DNA of 51,445 nucleotides from a virus (IMGVR_UViG_3300013372_000298:1-51445); one strand, 5' to 3'; shown: positions 4,434-50,192, counted from the stretch's first letter. Notes: generated by a model from the letters alone, not told the origin. Numbers and translations are program-made.

Positions 4434-6620
4434 TTACTGACCAAGACCTGCAAGTCTTCTGAACTCAGCGAAATCTTCATCTCCTGTGCGCTCTTTATCA
4501 CCTGCAAGTACAGGGATAGTTTGCTGACCAGTTGATTTAGGCTTGTTCAAGCCACCTGAGATAACTTGAGTCATGAATTCTATATCACGTTCAAATGTCT
4601 GCTGTGTACCGTCTTTACCCGCATCATTTGCCCACTCATCGACTTTTTCTTTCTTGTCTTTCTTGTCATCGTATTCGATGTCTTTCTTTACTTTTTCACC
4701 GGCTTTTTCTGCTTTGTTGTCATCTTTACCTTTATGATCTTCATCATATTCGATATCTTTAGCGACTTTCTTAGCAGCCTTTTCTGCCTTGTCATCTTTC
4801 TCACTAGTTGACTCTTCAGCAAGCCATGCTAATTTCTTGTATAGATTCAAGAAACTTGTTCTTGATTCGCTCATTGCTTCTTCTTCCTCTTCGGCTGCAT
4901 CTGCTGACGCTACTGCATCAGCCGCTAATGGATTGCTTTCCATACCGTCTTCGTTAGTCGCTCCACCTTTGGCTGACCCACCTGCTGCCAACGCTGAATC
5001 AATTTGTGCCGCGGCTTCTTGACCTTGCTCATAACCTTCTCCGTCATCTTCTGCGACTTGATATTCCATCTGGTCTTCTGATTCTACTTCATCAACCATC
5101 TCTTTACCTTCGCCGCACTTATGACCTGCTTCCATCATGCCACCGCACTCGTTGCAAGTTTGTTCTTTAGCGTGATCATGTCCTTCTTCATCTTTATAGT
5201 CATCACCACCTGACATGACTTTTAACAAGCCCATCATGCCGCCTTTATCGTCATAGCCACTGAACTTAGGTGCACCATAGTCACTCATCGCGGCTGCTGG
5301 CTCTGCTGGACTGTCTAGTTGCTGTTCGCCACCGAGACCACCTAGACCAACTTGCTTAATGAATGCCAACAACTTACCAGCATCATCACCTGTTGCTGAA
5401 ACGCTTACTGAATCATCACCCATGCCATCATCTAAACCTTGTGACATGTTGACGCTTAGACCCTCACTTAACAAGTCATTCAATTGCTTGTCTAGTGATT
5501 CAAATGCAAATGCATCTGTTTCTAGTACATCTTTGTCATGCATAGTCTGACCAAATGCTTTGAATGTATCACCGGGTGTCTTCATGGCTTGTTGCTTCAT
5601 GTAAGCAGTCTTATCCATCTCACCTAGTGAACCTTCTTCGGCGCCATAACTTGCCATATCATCGACAACATCTTGTCCTGATTCGATCTCGCTTACTACA
5701 AGACCACGATTTGGCATCAAGCCATAGCACTCATCGATGCCTTCTTTGAAACCTTCGTGATAACGACGGTGTTCATCACTGCCTTCGTTATAGCGGCAAG
5801 CATAATTTGACTTGCTCAATCCGTGTGATTTGCCTTCGTGATAGGCTGCTTCTAATGTATTCATTGCTTCGTCTACCTTCTTTTTCTTTTCATCTTTTAG
5901 ATGTGATTTTACTTTTTCTTCAGTTTCTTTTTTGTCTTTATTAGACTTATCTATATTTTTTTGAAACTTACCTGCAAAATCTTTTTTCGCTTCTAATGTT
6001 TTTTGACTACGACCGGCGCCCAATCCAGCACCGTAGTCTGGACCTGCATGTGGAATTTCTGCTTCTTCTACTCCGCCCTTCCAGTCCTTCTTAGCACGGA
6101 TGGCGAACATGATCTGACGCATTCTCTTAAAGCCAGGAGTACCTTCTTTGTGTGGGCCACTCTTCTTTAATTTAGTAAGCATTGATTTCAATTCTTCAAC
6201 ACTCTTACCTGCATATTGACCAGTTGGCTCCACCTTAGCATCGCCGGCCCATTTCTCATCAAGAGCGTCTTCTTTCATCTCGTCTCCGGCTAGTGACATC
6301 TCACCTTTACCGATCGCTGATTTGATTGTTGCGGCAAGTGCAGGATTAGTTACTGAGCCAATCACTTCATTACCTTTTTTAATAACTTGTGCTGATTGTT
6401 TTGCAGGTTCAATAGTCAATTGATCTGCTTCGTTAATCATATTTTTGTCGATGGCTTCAAACCAATCTTTCAAAGATTTCTTTTTATCTTTAGCAGCCAA
6501 TGCCGCTTTCTTAGCACGTTCTGCGGCTGCTTTTTTATCGTGTGGCTTGTCAGAAGATTTAGCATCTTTATCATATGCATCTTCTTCATTAACCATTTCT
6601 AGAAATTTTCTAAAATCCAT
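4434..6620 (-). CDS. Large charged late protein, possibly head-internal, with RMF-like and zinc-ribbon-like motifs
   Basis: A 728-residue, very charged, low-complexity protein (Lys/Asp/Glu/Ala). It begins MDFRKFLEMVNEED, a short helix like those that target T4 internal head proteins. It contains many [LI]-x-E triplets (INEA, LSEG, LAEE), the type of site cut by the T4 prohead protease. Near the middle is an RMF-like stretch (AAYHEGKSHGLS...YACRYNEG...RRYHEGFKEGID). Further on is a zinc-ribbon-like CNECGGMMEAGHKCGEG. The C-terminal third has repeated KDIEYD blocks in Lys-rich coil. It starts shortly after the 6633-7244 gene and ends at a strong terminator. Similar proteins occur in aquatic T4-like phages. 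A scaffold/core or injected-protein role is inference. Confidence 0.6.
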   Translation of the reverse strand: MDFRKFLEMVNEEDAYDKDAKSSDKPHDKKAAAERAKKAALAAKDKKKSLKDWFEAIDKNMINEADQLTIEPAKQSAQVIKKGNEVIGSVTNPALAATIKSAIGKGEMSLAGDEMKEDALDEKWAGDAKVEPTGQYAGKSVEELKSMLTKLKKSGPHKEGTPGFKRMRQIMFAIRAKKDWKGGVEEAEIPHAGPDYGAGLGAGRSQKTLEAKKDFAGKFQKNIDKSNKDKKETEEKVKSHLKDEKKKKVDEAMNTLEAAYHEGKSHGLSKSNYACRYNEGSDEHRRYHEGFKEGIDECYGLMPNRGLVVSEIESGQDVVDDMASYGAEEGSLGEMDKTAYMKQQAMKTPGDTFKAFGQTMHDKDVLETDAFAFESLDKQLNDLLSEGLSVNMSQGLDDGMGDDSVSVSATGDDAGKLLAFIKQVGLGGLGGEQQLDSPAEPAAAMSDYGAPKFSGYDDKGGMMGLLKVMSGGDDYKDEEGHDHAKEQTCNECGGMMEAGHKCGEGKEMVDEVESEDQMEYQVAEDDGEGYEQGQEAAAQIDSALAAGGSAKGGATNEDGMESNPLAADAVASADAAEEEEEAMSESRTSFLNLYKKLAWLAEESTSEKDDKAEKAAKKVAKDIEYDEDHKGKDDNKAEKAGEKVKKDIEYDDKKDKKEKVDEWANDAGKDGTQQTFERDIEFMTQVISGGLNKPKSTGQQTIPVLAGDKERTGDEDFAEFRRLAGLGQ

Positions 6621-15241: not shown

Positions 15242-16378
15242 CTATTTAAAAAAATTAATAACTTTGTCATGTAATGAATCATAAGGTCTAGTCCAGAATA
15301 GTTCACGATTGTGTACCAAAATATCTCTGTCTTTTTTATATAATTCATGTAGTTCATCGATTGAGAGATCAAGTAGTTTTTTGGCTGAATTGGCATATGA
15401 GTCGAAACGCTCATCAATATTAGGTAGCGTGTCGTAACTATAATCTATCCAATCTGGAAGTTTAAATCCATATGATCGTATGTCATCTACTAAGCCCATA
15501 TAACCGAATGGTAATATGAAATGACCCTTGATTAATGGATCCCAAGTTTTCTCTGTTATGGATCTGTACTTTATTGTCTCTTCAAAAAAGTTCTCATTAC
15601 CAGTGATCGTCTCACAGTACATACTAAAATATGTACCTTGATAATAATGATTGGCGATAGGATACCATCCGCCATTGTTCAAGAATTGATCAGCATGAGG
15701 ATTATCTGTTTCTAATATTAACCCTTTTGAGAAGTCACTATAGTGACCATCATCTGGATACATGTCTATCAATTCTTTTAATTTTTTTCTGAACTTAAAT
15801 CTAGGGTGATCAAACGTTTGATATATCCTATTGGGGCACAAATATTTTCGTATCGAATTAGTCTTCTTATCCGTTATCTTTTCTATAGGTCTTAATTCAA
15901 AATTCTTGATATTAGCACCTGTTACATACAATCGTTCTCTAAGGTTGATTCTATTATAATCTGTGAAATATATCTTTTGTCTATTCCACAAAAAATCATA
16001 ACTTATCTCTGTATCTAGGGCAAAGTTAGTATGTACTATAGCAAACTCATTGGGTATTTCTTGTTGTAATATTTTTCTAGCAAATAGAAAATAGTTTCTA
16101 TCAGGAAAGCAATGATCTATGTGAAAAATATGTAATATTAAAAGTTTCTGATGCGGACTTAGATTCAAGTCTTTGATTTGTTGAACTTTGTCATATATTT
16201 GATCTTGACCAAATATATCATGACCATGGATAGCGATTATATCTGCATCTTTTATATTGCTAGTATGTTTAAAATCATTTGACTCTATATCAAACTGCAG
16301 GAAGTTTTTATAATAACATCCTATAACCTTATCAGAACTATGCGGGAATCCTGTACCTGGATTGTAAATTTTCAACAT
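15242..16378 (-). CDS. Glycosyltransferase-like protein
   Basis: A 378-residue soluble protein. The C-terminal third (TKYRSITEKTWDPLI-type segment, GHFILPFGYMGLVDDIRSYG, LPDWIDYSYDTL, ERFDSY) is typical of phage proteins related to fucosyltransferase/exostosin-like GT-B enzymes, where Glu-Lys-Thr in SITEKTW lies in the donor-binding region. The N-terminal half (DADIIAIHGHDIFG, LLILHIFHIDHCFPDRNYF) has alternating strand and helix segments. Acceptor and sugar are unknown; modification of phage DNA, of the virion or of host surface glycans are all possible. It starts 17 bp after the gp13-like gene and has no promoter of its own that I can see. Confidence 0.55.
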   Translation of the reverse strand: MLKIYNPGTGFPHSSDKVIGCYYKNFLQFDIESNDFKHTSNIKDADIIAIHGHDIFGQDQIYDKVQQIKDLNLSPHQKLLILHIFHIDHCFPDRNYFLFARKILQQEIPNEFAIVHTNFALDTEISYDFLWNRQKIYFTDYNRINLRERLYVTGANIKNFELRPIEKITDKKTNSIRKYLCPNRIYQTFDHPRFKFRKKLKELIDMYPDDGHYSDFSKGLILETDNPHADQFLNNGGWYPIANHYYQGTYFSMYCETITGNENFFEETIKYRSITEKTWDPLIKGHFILPFGYMGLVDDIRSYGFKLPDWIDYSYDTLPNIDERFDSYANSAKKLLDLSIDELHELYKKDRDILVHNRELFWTRPYDSLHDKVINFFK

Positions 16379-17856: not shown

Positions 17857-18989
17857 TAGAATGCCTTTAGGATAATCATGTTTTCATTGAATCGACCGTT
17901 AGGTGTAGTCGATACAGCCTTGATGTCTTTGAAGTACTTACGTGCCGCGGGCTTACTTCCCATGACTTCTTTGATTTGCACTTCGGGCTTACGTAGTGTC
18001 TTAGTCTCAGAATTTTTAGTGCAGAACCCGATAACACTGTTACCTTTGACAGTCAAACTCTTGCCATATTCATCAGCAACTAAGTGAATCAACTTACGCT
18101 TCTTAGTATCATAGACCCAAGCCTCAGCACAACCATGCAACTTTGTAGATGGTACACTGACCAACTCAAGTTTCTCAAGTTTGAATGTCTTGAGATACTT
18201 GAGGCTACGCACAATCTTCTCGACCGGCACTGCTTTCTTAGCACGTGGCTTTCGCCCTGCTTTCTTAATATTGATATATGAGTTAAGATCGGAGATAACC
18301 TTCTCAATCACGCCGATTATGTTGCGAACCTGTACCTTACCTAAATGTGAATATGCTTCGTTCAACTGCTCATCTTTACCTGCTTGCAACTCGGTGTACT
18401 CATCCAGTTTACGTTGCCAAGCACTAGTCAAAATATTGATATGTTGCGGCAACACATTGTATTGTGTCAACACACTGACCGGATTGATGTTGCTTTCTTT
18501 CTTGCAACCACCTAGAATATATTCATCCCACTGCCCTTCAAGTTCACCACCTGCTTCTAGCGCCTTCTCACGCATACGCTCTTGAATGTTCGGCTTGATG
18601 ACTATATTAGTAGTTACCTCTTCTGCTACTACCTCTTCCTTATCTTCCGTCAACAAACGTTCAATTTCTGAGGACAGTTTATTGATCGTATTCTCATCGT
18701 TGTATCCGCGTAACACGCATCGTGCCACGAATCCATAAGTAGTAGTCACATTGCTATCGCTTACACGGCGAAATGCTTTTGCTTCAGTAATCTTGCCTGT
18801 AAAGTCAAGATATTGGGCAATAAATTCTTTAGCATCCTTCTTATCGTAGAAGTGATGATACCATGTTAGTGCTTCACCCAAACTATGTTTGGCTTTTTCT
18901 ACACTAAAATCAGGTTCGGGTCCAAAATACTTAGCGTCTGCATCCCTGGGATTCAAGGGCTTGATTTCATGCGTTTTAGTCTTGACCAT
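17856..18989 (-). CDS. Conserved early protein of unknown function
   Basis: A 377-residue protein starting MVKTKTHEIKPLNPRDADAK; an in-frame extension to 19049 would overlap the promoter, so it is rejected. The N-terminal region (EALTWYHHFYDKKDAKEFIA), a central coiled helix (YTELQAGKDEQLNEAYSHLG, NIIGVIEKVISDLNSYINIK) and a basic linker (KKAGRKPRAKKAVPVEKIVR) precede a beta-rich C-terminus (GCAEAWVYDTKKRKLIHLVA, SVIGFCTKNSETKTLRKPE). The basic stretch suggests nucleic-acid binding. First gene of an early operon with a strong sigma70 promoter. Similar proteins occur in aquatic T4-like phages, but no function is known to me. Confidence 0.6.
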   Translation of the reverse strand: MVKTKTHEIKPLNPRDADAKYFGPEPDFSVEKAKHSLGEALTWYHHFYDKKDAKEFIAQYLDFTGKITEAKAFRRVSDSNVTTTYGFVARCVLRGYNDENTINKLSSEIERLLTEDKEEVVAEEVTTNIVIKPNIQERMREKALEAGGELEGQWDEYILGGCKKESNINPVSVLTQYNVLPQHINILTSAWQRKLDEYTELQAGKDEQLNEAYSHLGKVQVRNIIGVIEKVISDLNSYINIKKAGRKPRAKKAVPVEKIVRSLKYLKTFKLEKLELVSVPSTKLHGCAEAWVYDTKKRKLIHLVADEYGKSLTVKGNSVIGFCTKNSETKTLRKPEVQIKEVMGSKPAARKYFKDIKAVSTTPNGRFNENMIILKAF

Positions 18990-44459: not shown

Positions 44460-45491
44460 TTATGCCCGCTTCATGACCGTGTTCTCAGCCAACATCTTCC
44501 AGTTGGGACTGATCTTGACCAGATCAGCGATCTTGAGTGCCATACGCATACTCAACTCACGCAGTCGGGCCTTGTTGTCAAACATGAATTGCAACACTTG
44601 ATCACCTTCATCATTCTCGAAAAAGTAATCGCGAAACAATCCACCATCAGTATCCTGATGCACTTGTCTAATGCGCAACATCTTGTCACGCTCGGTGTCG
44701 ATAGTCAAGTCAAGAAAGTGACAACGTGACTGCAACGCTTCCAAGTGATCCTGCAACTTCTTGCTCTTCAAGTGATCGAACTTGATGTTAGTGATGAAGA
44801 TACAAGAACCGTTGAAGTCGAAACTGTCAGGGATACCTTCACGGCGCAACATGCTAGAATCACTGTTCCAGTAAATTCTGCGGCGCTTGCCACTATCAAG
44901 TGCGGCCTTGAGAATGTTCAGTGCGAGATCATCCATCAACACACTATCACAGTCATCGAACACCAACACGTGGTTCTTGTCACTATGCTTGAACAATGTA
45001 GCATAGAGACCCAATGCTGTCATAGCACCTTTGACAATCTCAAACTTGAGAGGACGACCTGCAATCTTGTCAAACATAGCCGCTTTCTCTAACTGCTGTT
45101 CAACACCAAACGATTTACCAACGCCCGGGGGACCTGATACGATCATTGCGCGAATACCACCCTTAGTAGTAGCCGCTGACATTTCATCAAGAATCGCAAA
45201 ACGTGTGCGAATACGTGCGATTGCTTCCTCGTCAGTTTCTACAGGGGTCACAGCAACTTGCTTAGTGCTGGGCACTTTCGCAACAGCACCACCTACAAAC
45301 TCAATATCATTCATTGAATCTACCTTTACCTTGACTGTATCGATGCCGCTAAACTCAGGGAACTGGCCCTCGTTACGCACCGTGACATAGTTACCTTTCT
45401 TACCTGACTGAAAGCCCTTGACCAGAGTAAACATCTGATCAACAACTTGAGTGTTACGATAAGACCCATTTAAAATACGAACTGTTGACAT
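44460..45491 (-). CDS. AAA+ ATPase of phage type
   Basis: A 343-residue protein; ATG 45491 is chosen because GGAG lies 6 nt before it (a TTG at 45503 is also in frame). The first 70 residues are a beta-rich domain (NYVTVRNEGQFPEFSGID). The AAA+ core follows with Walker A GPPGVGKS (120-127), Walker B HVLVFDDCDSVL (174-185), a sensor-like SCIFITNIKFDHL and an Arg-containing LEALQSRCHFLDL. Homologues are widespread in T4-like aquatic phages; the function is unknown, possibly remodelling of replication or host complexes. It has its own strong early promoter and a terminator. Its codon choice is more G+C-rich than its neighbours (many CTTGAG, GCACTC-type codons). Confidence 0.8.
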   Translation of the reverse strand: MSTVRILNGSYRNTQVVDQMFTLVKGFQSGKKGNYVTVRNEGQFPEFSGIDTVKVKVDSMNDIEFVGGAVAKVPSTKQVAVTPVETDEEAIARIRTRFAILDEMSAATTKGGIRAMIVSGPPGVGKSFGVEQQLEKAAMFDKIAGRPLKFEIVKGAMTALGLYATLFKHSDKNHVLVFDDCDSVLMDDLALNILKAALDSGKRRRIYWNSDSSMLRREGIPDSFDFNGSCIFITNIKFDHLKSKKLQDHLEALQSRCHFLDLTIDTERDKMLRIRQVHQDTDGGLFRDYFFENDEGDQVLQFMFDNKARLRELSMRMALKIADLVKISPNWKMLAENTVMKRA

Positions 45492-45525: not shown

Positions 45526-45554
45526 ATTATAGTACCTTGCAGGACCAATGTCAA
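45526..45554 (-). promoter_or_regulatory. Early sigma70-type promoter of the AAA+ ATPase gene
   Basis: Minus strand: consensus TTGACA (45549-45554), 17-bp spacer, consensus TATAAT (45526-45531). The -35 overlaps the stop codon of the small gene upstream. Leader with GGAG. Confidence 0.85.
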
Positions 45555-45724
45555 GCCTTAGCAAACATCTTAGCACCTTCGGCCATAACGACACGATATG
45601 CTTTCATTGTTTCTTGCGTCTGGGCTAATGGGCTAGTCTGAATAAACTGCATCATTTCCAAGAAGCCCAAACCCAAAAATTCTGCATCTTTTTGGATCAC
45701 TTTGATTGCTGTTTCGATTTTCAT
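45551..45724 (-). CDS. Small early protein, 57 residues
   Basis: A short gene found by its signals: strong early promoter, Shine-Dalgarno GGGAAGAG, ATG 45724 and stop TGA at 45551. The product is helical (MKIETAIKVIQKDAEFLGLG, FLEMMQFIQTSPLAQTQETM, KAYRVVMAEGAKMFAKA), slightly basic at both ends, with no recognised homologue. Its position as sole gene behind a duplicated strong early promoter suggests a host-takeover or regulatory peptide, which is inference. Confidence 0.6.
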   Translation of the reverse strand: MKIETAIKVIQKDAEFLGLGFLEMMQFIQTSPLAQTQETMKAYRVVMAEGAKMFAKA

Positions 45725-45732
45725 TTCTCTTC

Positions 45733-45793
45733 CCTTTTCTCAACTCTATGTATTAATTATAGTCCCTTGGGTGCCCAAAGTCAAGCCTTTTTC
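45733..45793 (-). promoter_or_regulatory. Early promoter cassette, copy 1
   Basis: TTGACT (45779-45784), 17-bp spacer, TATAAT (45756-45761) within a 61-bp segment that is 53/61 identical to 48589-48649. Copy 1 has a 12-bp dyad (TTGGGCACCCAA, 45767-45778) exactly in the spacer, which could be an operator. Confidence 0.8.
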
Positions 45794-45844
45794 GCCACTT
45801 TTTTCCACTATTTTTCGGATATTTTGTTGTTTAAAAACAACAAC

Positions 45845-46318
45845 TTACACAGGTTCCAAGTATCTGGTCTGGTCCGCACAAATATCAACGATATTGAACA
45901 TAGGGTTTCCTGTAAAAGGACCATATGGCATATGATCCTTCTTTACACGATACACAGGCCAACCGCCCTTTCTAATACGATTCTCAAACCAATTTTTCAA
46001 ATCAGTATATGTTACACCGCTATTAGGATCAACCCATTCCCAGGTCCAACGTCCTACATTTATACTTGTGTGCGCTTGTAATGCCTTGCGGCTATCTTCT
46101 AAATCTTCCATGATATCTGTTGGGCCATAGTAAAGATCACTGAATCGTTGTGGACAGCCTGTGTGACCTATGTAAGCCTTAATACGTTTTTCTTCATGGG
46201 TGGTTCGTCCCCACCCATCAAGATGTACAAAAATATCTGAATCGAAACATAACGGCACCTTATGGACAGTTTTTATTAGGTATAACCCAGTTGTAAAATT
46301 ATCCAATAATGTAATCAT
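45845..46318 (-). CDS. Accessory protein, possibly GIY-YIG-related
   Basis: A 157-residue protein. TTGLYLIKTV at the N-terminus and KAYIGHTGCPQRFSDLYYGP at about 47-66 resemble the GIY and YIG strands with the following Arg of GIY-YIG nucleases, but the spacing is longer than usual (a 35-residue insertion with FVHLDGWGRTTHEEKRI) and the distal Glu is not obvious. The C-terminal part (VGRWTWEWVDPNSGVTYTDL, VYRVKKDHMPYGPFTGNPMF) looks DNA-binding or structural. It starts immediately at the stop of the ParB-like gene, so the two are cotranscribed. Function uncertain. Confidence 0.45.
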   Translation of the reverse strand: MITLLDNFTTGLYLIKTVHKVPLCFDSDIFVHLDGWGRTTHEEKRIKAYIGHTGCPQRFSDLYYGPTDIMEDLEDSRKALQAHTSINVGRWTWEWVDPNSGVTYTDLKNWFENRIRKGGWPVYRVKKDHMPYGPFTGNPMFNIVDICADQTRYLEPV

Positions 46319-47559
46319 TATTTGTATCGTTCCAAAATATGAACTTCTAAGAAGTCATAGATATCTGGTTTTGCTAAAATACCAGTATCAGAAATTTCAA
46401 GTACGTCATGAGTACCACCATTGCGAACATAAGCACGACACACTACACCGGCAGCACAACTAAAAGGCGGGTCAGGTACATCTGCTAATGATCCGTGCTT
46501 ACTCTTATAATGTGCATCCCATGCTTTACCGGTTTGAGTTGATAGATTTTTCATTGTAAAGAATCCCTTGCGCAAGGTTCCCATGATTTCATCCATAAAC
46601 TCACGAAAGTCTGGATCATTACGGTTCTTATAAATTTTAGTTTCAATAAATTCCTTATAGAAGGATTCAAAGAAACCGTATTCAGTATTATGTACCGGCT
46701 CTTCAGGAAAATACAAATCATGTTCAGCACTAATATGATCCAAGACATACTTTGTGCGGGTCTTAATAGCATTGATATGTGTATTTGCACCTGCAAGGCC
46801 TTCGTTTTCCTTATCACCTTTTTTAATCAAGGTTCCGTTATTTTGCTCTAACGCAGAAACTTTTAGATGATTTTCCCATGCATCAGCATCATCCTTTTCA
46901 GTTTTACCGTCAATACGAATCTTGAAAAGATCATTGCGAATCATAGTATAATCGTCAACATTACGGCGGCCCTTGCCATTTACAAATGTAAACAAATCTC
47001 GGGCAAAACTACGATCACTTGTCTCTACATACCAGACAGGAACTAAAATATCTTCACCTGTCATATCAGCCCAAATCTTAGCATCAGCAAGACATTCTTG
47101 ACCTGTAGTATTATGCTGTCCATCACACGCATGATATTTTTCAACACCCGGATCCTTAACAGCAAACACAGGACTAATACGCCATGGATGAAAGTCCTCA
47201 AGAATTTCAAACAAGTGATCAGTAATAATGTCACGTTGAATATCTAAATCAATTACAACCTGACTAATAGGTACCCACTTAAATTTTGGCCTATCTGTTA
47301 ATTTGAACTTGCCTTCAAATTTCTTTTGAAGTTTACGCATAAGTGGTGCATAGCGTGGATCCTTTTTTATTTGTTCAACACGGTCCTTGAATGTAATTTC
47401 GTTATGCGCACCGACCTTACGTTTCATTTCATTCTTTGGATAAAGAATGTTAGAATCTTTAGGCTGATGTTTCCACATGAAAGGAAAAGCCTTCTTAGTT
47501 AATTTTTTAGATATGCGCCTAGCATTTCGATTAGTCATATTACCCTTTAACTTAGCCAT
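46318..47559 (-). CDS. ParB/Srx-fold nuclease-like protein
   Basis: A 413-residue protein, start at ATG 47559 with AAGGAG 7-8 nt upstream. A basic N-terminus (RNARRISKKLTKKAFPF) precedes a ParB/sulfiredoxin-like domain at about 97-160: VPISQVVIDLDIQRDIITDH, WRISPVFAVKD and HACDGQHNTTGQECL (the DGQHN resembles DGxHR). Next come FTFVNGKGRRNVDDYTMIRN and a long helical C-terminus (ESFYKEFIETKIYKN, GVVCRAYVRNGGTHDVLEIS). ParB-like proteins of phages include nucleases and DNA-modification-linked proteins such as DndB-like ones. Candidate defence, anti-defence or host-DNA functions. Coupled to both neighbours. Confidence 0.6.
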   Translation of the reverse strand: MAKLKGNMTNRNARRISKKLTKKAFPFMWKHQPKDSNILYPKNEMKRKVGAHNEITFKDRVEQIKKDPRYAPLMRKLQKKFEGKFKLTDRPKFKWVPISQVVIDLDIQRDIITDHLFEILEDFHPWRISPVFAVKDPGVEKYHACDGQHNTTGQECLADAKIWADMTGEDILVPVWYVETSDRSFARDLFTFVNGKGRRNVDDYTMIRNDLFKIRIDGKTEKDDADAWENHLKVSALEQNNGTLIKKGDKENEGLAGANTHINAIKTRTKYVLDHISAEHDLYFPEEPVHNTEYGFFESFYKEFIETKIYKNRNDPDFREFMDEIMGTLRKGFFTMKNLSTQTGKAWDAHYKSKHGSLADVPDPPFSCAAGVVCRAYVRNGGTHDVLEISDTGILAKPDIYDFLEVHILERYK

Positions 47560-47881
47560 GATCATTCTCCTTGAAAATTTCTTCTAACTCATCATCATTA
47601 TAAAAGAAACCTTGACCTCTATCATACTTGTTTTGAGGCAGTTTGTCAAATGTTTCGTTATCGTAATATTTTTCAATCACCATACGCCATCGATCTTCAG
47701 GAAGATCAACCAACTCAAATCCGTTGACTCTCCCGTAACCATCGTAGATACCTGTGATGCGATCACCGTTTTTAAATAAGACGACAACATCGCTAGCAAA
47801 TTCCCAATTGCTACCTCGCACCGCAACTTCTGCCATGACCGGCTTTTCAGATTTAGCACATTGCCAACTAAAGAATCCCAT
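47552..47881 (-). CDS. Small accessory protein (GFFSW family)
   Basis: A 109-residue protein starting MGFFSWQCAKSEKPVMAEVA, a start I recall in a family of short proteins of phages and some bacteria with CAKSxKPI/V. A beta-rich centre (DVVVLFKNGDRITGIYDGYG, RVNGFELVDLPED) and an acidic end follow. No function known. Cotranscribed from the promoter at 48612-48640. Confidence 0.55.
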   Translation of the reverse strand: MGFFSWQCAKSEKPVMAEVAVRGSNWEFASDVVVLFKNGDRITGIYDGYGRVNGFELVDLPEDRWRMVIEKYYDNETFDKLPQNKYDRGQGFFYNDDELEEIFKENDHG

Positions 47882-47882
47882 G

Positions 47883-48086
47883 TTACATCCTCACCTTATC
47901 GAAAATTTGATTTTGCAACCTAGAGACCTCATCGCTTGGAACATAAAAATCCGTAGTTGGATCCCAGTACTCACCTGCCTTAGCATCGTAATATAATACA
48001 CGACCGCTAGGATAATGAAAAGGACCTTCTAGCCCTTTTCTAGGTTGGAACTTACGTTCCATTTCGTTCAGTATACGATAACCCAT
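47883..48086 (-). CDS. Small accessory protein, unknown
   Basis: A 67-residue protein from ATG 48086, chosen by AAGGAGTGGT just upstream; a longer ORF to 48125 overlaps the previous gene. GYRILNEMERKFQPRKGL then YPSGRVLYYDAKAGEYWDPT is a short beta-hairpin-like sequence rich in Tyr/Trp. No homologue recognised. Confidence 0.55.
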   Translation of the reverse strand: MGYRILNEMERKFQPRKGLEGPFHYPSGRVLYYDAKAGEYWDPTTDFYVPSDEVSRLQNQIFDKVRM

Positions 48087-48087
48087 G

Positions 48088-48306
48088 TTACCACTCCTTA
48101 AATTCGCCTGAGGCGACTTGTTCAATAAAGCCAGTGTTGTACTCTAAGATTTCAGTATCGGTCATATCATCTTCAGTGACCAACTCGCTGGAACCTGTAT
48201 CGCCCTTGTAATAGTGGGGCTTGAAAGGTCGCTGATAGTAGGCATCAGCACTACCACGATCATAAGGTCCGCCATGACGCTTGTTGATGTTAGTACCAAA
48301 GTTCAT
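48088..48306 (-). CDS. Small conserved protein (HGGPYDRGSADAYY family)
   Basis: A 72-residue protein with KRHGGPYDRGSADAYYQRPF, then PHYYKGDTGSSELVTEDDMT and TEILEYNTGFIE. Short proteins with this motif occur in many phages and bacteria (from memory), without known function. Its stop is one base before the next start codon. Confidence 0.6.
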   Translation of the reverse strand: MNFGTNINKRHGGPYDRGSADAYYQRPFKPHYYKGDTGSSELVTEDDMTDTEILEYNTGFIEQVASGEFKEW

Positions 48307-48308
48307 GA

Positions 48309-48581
48309 TTACATGCTCCAGTAAGATTCGCTAGAAGGAGAGCAATAGTAGGGCGTATCATAACGCTCCTGAAACTCCTTACCACTCATCATGTTCTTGC
48401 GGGTGATGAAAGTCTCAAACACTTCAACGATGAAGCCCAACTTACGCTTGCTGTCAGCAACGGTATTAATATAGTCCTTAGTACTCGGTGCAAAATCTTG
48501 CTTCACCACGAGACGCTTACCTTCTTTGGTACGCTTGTCAGTCTTGTAGATTTCGAGGGTGTATTCAACTAGTGCAGACAT
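48309..48581 (-). CDS. Small early protein, unknown
   Basis: A 90-residue protein starting MSALVEYTLEIYKTDKRTKE, with Shine-Dalgarno AAAGGAACT; an in-frame TTG upstream is less likely. Beta-strand pattern then a helix (DYINTVADSKRKLGFIVEVF). It is the first gene after promoter cassette copy 2. Function unknown. Confidence 0.55.
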   Translation of the reverse strand: MSALVEYTLEIYKTDKRTKEGKRLVVKQDFAPSTKDYINTVADSKRKLGFIVEVFETFITRKNMMSGKEFQERYDTPYYCSPSSESYWSM

Positions 48582-48588
48582 TTCAGTT

Positions 48589-48649
48589 CCTTTTCTCAAC
48601 TCTATGTACTAATTATATGCCCAATGGCACCCAAAGTCAAGCCTTTTTC
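48589..48649 (-). promoter_or_regulatory. Early promoter cassette, copy 2
   Basis: TTGACT (48635-48640), 17-bp spacer, TATAAT (48612-48617), within a 61-bp direct repeat of 45733-45793. It drives the 48581-45845 accessory operon. The spacer dyad of copy 1 is not conserved; instead TTGGG occurs twice. Confidence 0.8.
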
Positions 48650-48721
48650 TGTTGTATTTTAGCAACAAAAAAGCCTTTATAAATCAATGACTTACGTTAC
48701 CTGTCGGTTTAATGATTTTGG
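48650..48721. other. Short gap upstream of promoter cassette copy 2
   Basis: About 70 bp between the cassette and the 48722 gene. On the minus strand it follows that gene's stop codon. I see no clear terminator or further signal in it. Confidence 0.4.
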
Positions 48722-49003: not shown

Positions 49004-49734
49004 TTATCAGCACATACGAAAAATTCGTTTAGGTCTTTACGTCTCCTAACATATTTGCTAGTGATGCGCAAAGAACCTTTATTGATCTTTTCGTCTAGTA
49101 GACTCAATAACGGATTGCTAATAGGAAAGTCTAACATAACTTTATTTAGTTTATCTGTGAACCAATATTCTACGCTATGAGTGTGTTTACGGTGGTTTTC
49201 AATCTTTTTGACAAAAGTAAGATTACGGATGTTCAATTGATTCATGTCATCTTGCTTATTGTTCTTAAAATAACTAGATTGAAAGATGTCATCGAACTCC
49301 TTGTCATAGTCAAAGAAATAAGGAAGTTTGTAGACAAGACCAACGTGACTATCTAATACCTTAGTTGGATCGCTATACAAGAACTTGTTCAAATCGTTCC
49401 TGAACTTAGTCAACTTATAATCGCGGAGTGTGAGCATGATCAACTTGTTCTTGTAATATTCACGAATGTTTGCCGCTTTCTGAACATCAAGGTCGGTGAC
49501 TAAATCCTTTAGTTCAGGATTATCTAGGCTTCTGCTATAACGCTGTATGACGGGTGTCCGCGTCGCCGACTCATTTTGGGCTAGTCTTTGTATGCAACAA
49601 CTGATAACCAATACATCTTCTGGAAATTCCTTGATGGAATCTTTCTTTTCTCCGTTCCATGATGTCAATATCTCATCCAATGTAGGTCCGAGTTTGCGTC
49701 TCTGAATCTGTGTAATAACATTGCTAGTAGTCAT
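48988..49734 (-). CDS. Unknown protein downstream of uvsY
   Basis: A 248-residue basic, helical protein from ATG 49734, which overlaps the uvsY stop (ATGA). Visible pieces: VITQIQRRKLGPTLDEILTS, FPEDVLVISCCIQRLAQNE, NIREYYKNKLIMLTLRDYKL, FVKKIENHRKHTHSVEYWFT and KGSLRITSKYVRRRKDLNEF. T4 would have uvsY.-2 and similar small genes here, but no match is recognised. Lys/Arg richness and coupling to uvsY suggest DNA-related function. Confidence 0.55.
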   Translation of the reverse strand: MTTSNVITQIQRRKLGPTLDEILTSWNGEKKDSIKEFPEDVLVISCCIQRLAQNESATRTPVIQRYSRSLDNPELKDLVTDLDVQKAANIREYYKNKLIMLTLRDYKLTKFRNDLNKFLYSDPTKVLDSHVGLVYKLPYFFDYDKEFDDIFQSSYFKNNKQDDMNQLNIRNLTFVKKIENHRKHTHSVEYWFTDKLNKVMLDFPISNPLLSLLDEKINKGSLRITSKYVRRRKDLNEFFVCADKWVFA

Positions 49735-50192
49735 CAACTCACCGTTATATCTTCCATGCCGGCTGTTCGTAGCCGAACGATGTGGCCCAATTGCCACTGC
49801 TTGCTATCAAGACCTTTCAAGATACCAAGCCATTTATTTCTCAGTAATGCAACTTCGTTGATCAATACTTCGAAATCAATTACTTCATCTTCACCATCAG
49901 TATACTTCTCTGCATCACGACTTGTCAAGGCTCTATTGTACCCTTCTAAGTACTTTTGGAAATATTTCCTGCGTAGTTTGCGTAATTGGATATTGAGATA
50001 GTTTAATACTGCTTCTATCTCTTGTAGTTGGTTAAATCGTTGTTCGGTGATTCCGGGTAAATTAGAAATGTTCTTTTCAACTTTTCCATTTACCCGGCAA
50101 TCATACCTTGCTTGCTCTAGTTCTGATTCATAGTGTGTTATGAAATCTGGAATCTGACTTAGATCACTAGTGATTCTGGTGTACCAATTCAT
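49734..50192 (-). CDS. uvsY: Recombination mediator protein UvsY
   Basis: A 152-residue protein matching UvsY of T4-like cyanophages: WYTRITSDLSQIPDFITHYE, LPGITEQRFNQLQEIEAVLN, YLNIQLRKLRRKYFQKYLEG, ALTSRDAEKYTDGEDEVIDF, LLRNKWLGILKGLDSKQWQL. UvsY helps load UvsX recombinase onto gp32-coated ssDNA. It follows uvsX after one small acidic gene, as is usual in aquatic T4-like phages. Confidence 0.85.
   Translation of the reverse strand: MNWYTRITSDLSQIPDFITHYESELEQARYDCRVNGKVEKNISNLPGITEQRFNQLQEIEAVLNYLNIQLRKLRRKYFQKYLEGYNRALTSRDAEKYTDGEDEVIDFEVLINEVALLRNKWLGILKGLDSKQWQLGHIVRLRTAGMEDITVS

Follow-up and report, generated by a model that had tools for sequence, protein, structure and literature searches.

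The window analysed in this study is the entire IMG/VR record IMGVR_UViG_3300013372_000298, a viral sequence of 51,445 bases that is probably a fragment. It was read as belonging to a T4-like phage, as UvsX-like and UvsW-like genes appear to adjoin the region of interest, with its other T4-type genes (gp41-like, gp61-like and tail sheath) read from open reading frames (ORFs) only. The region lies between the uvsX side and the gene of an AAA ATPase-like protein (AAA) next to uvsW, and contains a block of six genes headed by a promoter-like element, P2, with a second such element, P1, at its far end. The original prediction had described this block as an accessory cassette between two copies of one strong early promoter, which could be exchanged or deleted by recombination between them.

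Relatives were gathered using the AAA protein, with 80 of the 429 matched contigs used (designated by the prefix L). All compared loci are metagenome contigs and are known from assemblies alone. Mapping of these approximately 80 loci showed that the flanks of the variable region (the uvsX side and AAA-uvsW) are 60-100% identical, and that the gene content between them is completely different from relative to relative. The uvsX-side flank consists of g83, g152 and usually g93, with g249 also named there. The interval between the flanks is a hyperplastic early-gene region. Comparison with cultivated phages revealed little: a nucleotide search of positions 44.5-50 kb of the window against 50,697 phage genomes returned zero matches, and no isolate was found with AAA or UvsW at 60% or above, the nearest isolates being large phages. 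UvsW (TBLASTN) had matches in 3,139 phage records, the best being large phages at 54%, and protein comparison identified AAA as common to T4-like phages as well.

The two promoter copies were confirmed as a direct repeat on the minus strand (45733-45793 and 48589-48649, starts 2,856 bp apart), identical at 53 of 61 nucleotides and each holding TTGACT-17-TATAAT. Such a pair is expected by chance in the window at about 1e-13 (1e-10 to 2e-7 when AT-rich composition is considered), the runner-up anywhere in the window being 37/61. Their likeness is not confined to the hexamers but takes in an A-rich stretch ahead of the -35 box, some of the spacer and a leader with a ribosome-binding site. A third copy that the original prediction had not included, P0 (45526-45559, hexamers at 45554-45526, minus strand, TTGACA-17-TATAAT), is situated 230 bp from P1 and ahead of AAA. 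P2, P1 and P0 are the only three occurrences of TTGACW-N16-18-TATAAT in the 51 kb, with 0.16 expected; a fourth, weak copy (TTGACT-17-TAGAAT, 19049-19021, minus strand) precedes a gene starting near 18989. The six genes were also confirmed (90, 72, 67, 109, about 413 and 157 amino acids (aa), the last two ParB-like and GIY-YIG-like; Table 1). The promoters do not face the block, however, but are arranged in tandem in the direction of the genes, with P2 leading the six-gene block, P1 the next gene, h57, and P0 leading AAA. It is predicted that P2 drives the block and that P1 drives h57 and, together with P0, AAA.

Table 1. Predicted features of the variable region of the window and its two anchors.
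Feature	Position	Strand	Remark
P2 promoter unit, TTGACT-17-TATAAT, leader TACATAGAGTTGAGAAAAGG	48589..48649	-	leads 90-aa gene
Stem-loop upstream of P2, GTAAGTCATTGATTTATAAAGGCTTTTTTGTTG...CAACAG	48645..48695	-	fold -13.9 kcal/mol, z -2.1
90-aa gene, function without assignment	48309..48581	-	ORF
72-aa gene, cluster c3	48088..48306	-	missing from L009
67-aa gene, cluster c1, phrog_13298	47883..48086	-	
d109, 109-aa gene	47552..47881	-	overlaps e start; left edge of exchanged pair
e, DGQHR/ParB-Srx-fold protein (predicted), about 413 aa, CDGQH motif	46318..47559	-	
f, GIY-YIG (MUG113/T5orf172-type) nuclease-like, 157 aa	45845..46318	-	stop inside P1 stem-loop element
Stem-loop upstream of P1, GTAAGTTGTTGTTTTTAAACAACAAAATA	45820..45848	-	right edge of e/f exchange
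P1 promoter unit, TTGACT-17-TATAAT	45733..45793	-	leads h57
h57, 57-aa gene, cluster c6	45551..45724	-	stop = TGA of P0 -35 box
P0, third promoter copy, TTGACA-17-TATAAT	45526..45559	-	leads AAA
AAA ATPase-like protein, phrog_1250	44460..45491	-	conserved right-hand anchor
152-aa gene beside uvsX	49734..50192	-	conserved left-hand anchor

Promoters of this class recur among the relatives, with up to eight per region when -10 boxes with one mismatch are counted, and each sublineage repeats its own flavour before several genes (TTGACTTTGGG... in the window group, TTGACAATAAAT... in L055-L075 and TTGACCAATAAT... in L076-L082). In long relatives the class was also found outside the region, being densest within it in some; on the contig of L071, six of seven lie inside 3.2 kb of 78 kb. 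Composite elements of stem-loop and promoter are present at other loci too. In the slot before AAA, the unrelated genes h57, c52 and c7 each end at the TGA of the P0 -35 box, and the stop of the upstream gene falls inside the -35 box at 19 of 69 distinct promoters of relatives. In the window, the h57 stop takes this TGA at 45551-45554, and the stop of f is the TAA of the stem-loop sequence GTAAGT (45843-45848).

Comparison of these loci makes it probable that promoter-led units have been gained, lost and replaced by recombination at or beside shared promoter elements, P2, P1 and P0 being three such elements. The most direct cases are single promoters of hybrid composition. L070 has the order c34-P-c18-c23-P-c25 (P being a promoter) and L065 has c34-P-c25; the 300-bp flanks are 98% and 91% identical, 527 bp are missing in L065, and its remaining promoter (L065:2891) joins the upstream side of L070:5670 to the downstream side of L070:6197. 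A similar case, with 2,744 bp absent, was found between L073 and L075 (two assemblies) and L067 and L070 (two assemblies). Furthermore, a 251-bp P-c62 unit is present in L071 and L072 and not in L065, L067 and L070, and L065 retains a single promoter whose outer sides are those of L071.

Divergence between near-identical phages was likewise observed at promoter edges. L086 and L004 share 5,128 bp at 99.84% identity and diverge from P1 on, where L086 carries a different promoter and a 103-aa gene. Together with its stem-loop-promoter, this 103-aa unit has a counterpart at 95% identity in another context, in L163, where the two sequences become homologous from the stem-loop onward; a second composite element of L163 stands directly behind the terminator-like hairpin of the unit. 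L003 matches the window at 98.5% starting 33 bp upstream of the P1 -35 box, with different genes ahead of that point. AAA with its promoter has ten different families as upstream neighbour. By eye, the protein encoded at 15242-16378 of the window resembles that of the variable-slot gene of L016 (6462-7274) and its near-identical relatives, and slot genes may therefore come from elsewhere in these genomes.

The block between P2 and P1 was compared with L004, L006-L008 and L086, their AAA being 99-100% identical to that of the window where covered. These relatives share the block at about 99% as far as the overlap of d109 and e, after which they carry a very divergent e/f pair; past this pair, L004 and L006-L008 rejoin the window at the stem-loop before P1, while L086 does not. 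Six metagenomes, the sources of L004-L008 and L086, yielded the alternative e/f allele. A mosaic is also seen in P1 and the beginning of h57, which resemble L011 in L004 and L009/L016 in L005-L008. All six close relatives covering P2 and the first block genes (L004, L006-L009 and L086) retain P2 and the greater part of the block, L009 being without the 72-aa gene, and no clean P2-P1 deletion was seen among the close relatives. The parts exchanged in the window lineage are the inner e/f pair and the unit behind P1, and the whole block is not conserved in all close relatives. Therefore, the general idea of exchange or deletion at the repeats is supported, as seen from units present or absent, single hybrid promoters left behind (L065 versus L070 and others) and divergence at P1, but the specific cassette is not: the remnant with one promoter was found in other sublineages and not for 45.8-48.6 kb of the window. 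The block is a composite rather than a single cassette.

The region can be pictured as a series of short units. Heading each is a strong promoter of host type from a family specific to the lineage, in many cases preceded directly by a stem-loop. The promoter elements would most likely have two roles, offering short stretches of homology that recur and expression signals that are portable. With such elements present repeatedly in a genome and common to several genomes, homologous recombination there can move promoter-led units, and the incoming gene of a replaced or gained unit would stay expressed. Hybrid single promoters, the parting of near-identical phages at a promoter edge and the swap of e/f alleles were observed directly; the crossovers would have been made by the phage's own recombination, and the direction of each event, gain or loss, is inferred. 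According to PMC4177764, 50 bp of homology can reportedly be enough for recombination in T4 and, by analogy, the phage of the window may recombine on similarly short homology. A transposon or integron reading was set aside, with no terminal inverted repeats and no recognisable transposase or integrase found in the units.

The exchanged e/f pair was examined separately. Among 35 homologs of e, profile searches identified TIGR03187 (DGQHR) in eight (best 7.8e-5) and DUF6551 in six; the e model (pLDDT 72.8) had ParB or Noc as all of its 11 best fold matches (E 0.02-0.14). On the basis of this predicted fold and its DGQH motif, e is assigned to the DGQHR / ParB-Srx superfamily. Homologs of f matched MUG113 (19 of 35), T5orf172 (16 of 35) and GIY-YIG (7 of 35) below E 0.1 (best 2.9e-6), while the window f protein alone gave no such family match. 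Its model (pLDDT 90.5) had the GIY-YIG nuclease Slx1 as top fold match, a weak one (E 0.18), and the catalytic residues Y13, G37, R45 and E74 are invariant in 35 homologs. By fold and these residues f is placed in the GIY-YIG superfamily, and DNA cutting is predicted. The two genes overlap or abut, with f following e at 58 of 71 e loci. Of the distant e homologs that lack f, six are followed by a gene that is HNH-like by motif (confirmed by profile in two of three tested, best 3.7e-9). Beside distant e genes (DGQHR/DUF6551) of L145 (6086-6541), L146 (6113-6580) and L152 (6099-6551), an HNH nuclease gene (Pfam HNH) was noted in place of the GIY-YIG gene.

Divergence of e and f is correlated (Mantel rho 0.62, 0 of 999 permutations) and does not follow that of their surroundings: AAA is 100% identical in the window, L003 and L004, yet f is 20-37% identical. 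Between the window and L004, identities are 100% for AAA, 19% for e and 37% for f, and between the window and L097 they are 58%, 70% and 75%, respectively. Judged from these sequences, e/f variants swap horizontally. Of 61 contigs from another phage group, 32 have e/f approximately 60 bp ahead of an exonuclease gene, and some contigs scored as unoccupied carry e/f 2-4 kb further upstream. Promoter-like sequence lies just ahead of the exonuclease gene in most occupied and empty contigs, and L262 (with e/f) and L266 (without) have exonuclease genes that are 94.5% identical. This position upstream of the exonuclease gene (phrog_107; L243-L320, about position 5001 in most) appears as a second hypervariable promoter-bounded slot; it is occupied by variants of e/f or by other genes, or is left empty, and a conserved sigma70-like promoter follows it. 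On a 267-kb phage contig (L097:1720-4696), e/f directly follows rIIA and rIIB, ahead of AAA.

A protein search with the window e and the L012 f found no match in 50,697 isolate phage genomes, the e alignment, scanned against GTDB genomes, gave 135 pattern matches and 0 relatives, PADLOC returned nothing useful for e and f (best E 0.015), and profile searches of PDB sequences with both gave no meaningful match. The pair is best read as a putative two-gene DNA-cutting module, comprising a ParB-fold partner and an exchangeable nuclease, that may be selected for new variants; its target would be host or rival phage DNA. It is quite possible, though less likely than not, that e/f is an undescribed phage-borne two-gene system (DGQHR/ParB-fold with interchangeable GIY-YIG or HNH) with many mutually exclusive divergent variants in promoter-bounded slots of different phage groups. 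If so, otherwise identical phages would differ in weapons or homing drives through their e/f variants.

Other explanations were considered for the events at the promoters. The e/f pair may be a free-standing homing cassette, whose GIY-YIG nuclease cuts rival alleles so that repair copies the block with its flanks, the exchange then being driven by the nuclease and not by promoter repeats. The invariant catalytic residues of f, the fixed site upstream of the conserved exonuclease gene, occupied in L262 and empty in L266, and the change of nuclease type to HNH in distant relatives all suit this explanation, but in the window lineage an allele replaces an allele rather than filling an empty site, and units without a recognised nuclease (c18-c23, c62 and the 103-aa unit) move likewise, so that we regard it as rather unlikely. 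The likeness of the promoters could also stem from the shared sigma-70 consensus, spacer and leader of one early regulon, with illegitimate recombination at gene ends and the promoters as bystanders. Hybrid promoters with sequence-exact halves, the parting of 99.8% identical phages at P1 and the extent of P1/P2 identity into spacer, A-rich stretch and leader are difficult to reconcile with this, and it is considered unlikely, even though class promoters occur elsewhere in long relatives, gene boundaries free of promoters are also enriched in breakpoints and no promoter lies where the e/f swap begins on its left.

Movement of P2-P1 as one cassette, deleted or exchanged whole between the 61-bp repeats as the original prediction proposed, agrees with their direct orientation and 53/61 identity and with the equivalent events in relatives of the L065/L070 type; with six close relatives changing only inside the block or behind P1, it is improbable for the window. 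Short-read assemblers might also have fused different phages at a repeated promoter, only metagenome contigs being available and the junctions lying at repeats. However, arrangements recur across independent samples (L004-L008 with L086 in six metagenomes, L073/L075, L067/L070 and L071/L072) and stretches of exact identity stay below about 30 bp, which leaves such an artefact very improbable.

Several points weigh against recombination at promoter elements as the preferred reading. Relative to length expectation, homology breakpoints were enriched 2.7x in promoter zones and 1.6x at other gene boundaries, with 0.27x in gene interiors, but the promoter enrichment is partly built in because alignments run into the shared promoter, and the events are not fully independent; the count is consistent with promoter edges and is not proof of them. 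On its left, the e/f swap is bounded by the overlap of the d109 and e genes and not by a promoter, and the clean P2-P1 deletion looked for in close relatives was not found. The arrangement P-h57-P-AAA also occurs in the distant relatives L076 and L078-L080, and that part is therefore old and stable, not freely mobile. Stem-loop folding was marked in L003 (z -4.6) and L016 (z -4.5) and less so at P2 (z -2.1), with the P1 stem-loop no more stable than shuffles (z 0.1), and neither P1 nor P2 of the window showed a classic intrinsic terminator. Lastly, the evidence comes from metagenome assemblies only, and promoter activity is predicted.

For e/f, the nearest functional analogy may be the GmrSD type IV restriction enzymes, which combine a DUF262 DGQQR ParB/Srx domain with a DUF1524 HNH domain (PMC4619093). 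Both have a ParB/Srx-fold protein with a DGQ[QH] motif beside a nuclease, which is HNH in part of the e/f family; the differences are that e has DGQH and not DGQQR, and that e/f comprises two overlapping phage genes with a GIY-YIG partner. Assignment of e/f to GmrSD was rejected, as Pfam DUF262 had no match in the 35 e homologs and the partner is GIY-YIG, or a generic HNH in distant relatives. The Seg family of T4 consists of free-standing GIY-YIG homing endonucleases. These share with f the small GIY-YIG protein between phage genes and the patchy occurrence, but f, known here from its sequence, is paired with e and undergoes allele replacement in the window lineage, not simple presence or absence. 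The results also point to a putative two-gene nuclease module that is hypervariable and did not turn up in isolate collections. Its variants turn over faster than their surroundings, a pattern that is often a sign of conflict with hosts or with rival phages and that makes e/f a good target for experiments.

T4 hyperplastic regions hold fast-changing small early genes flanked by conserved replication and recombination genes. Such regions are mentioned in PMC4177764. That of the window lineage differs in its location between uvsX/g152 and AAA-uvsW. Promoter-early stem-loop (PeSL) elements, or mobile regulatory cassettes, were reportedly described in T4-type phages by Arbiol in 2010 and Comeau in 2014. 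PeSL elements of T4-type phages are portrayed as recombination and expression signals (PMC4503421), and a PeSL-like scheme is suggested for a haloarchaeal virus (PMC3950731). In these sources, host-type early promoters and stem-loops lie between small early genes, with several copies in the most variable regions and module edges at the elements; the promoters, their multiple copies and the module edges have counterparts in the window region, where stem-loops are present as well, though weak at P1. Here, predicted host-type promoters were found gene-wise in intergenic regions, in multiple copies and with module edges at the element, and the kinship with T4-type mobile cassettes that had been proposed holds in these respects. 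The differences are the element sequence and lineage, the weak stem-loop at P1, the lack of a classic terminator in the window, and the direct cases of hybrid promoters in uncultivated phages. The region is best classed as a further instance of PeSL-type shuffling, a scheme already known in T4-like phages. It adds an uncultivated T4-like lineage to the known cases of promoter-mediated shuffling, and the evidence is unusually direct, consisting of hybrid promoters and of 99.8% identical phages that part at a promoter.

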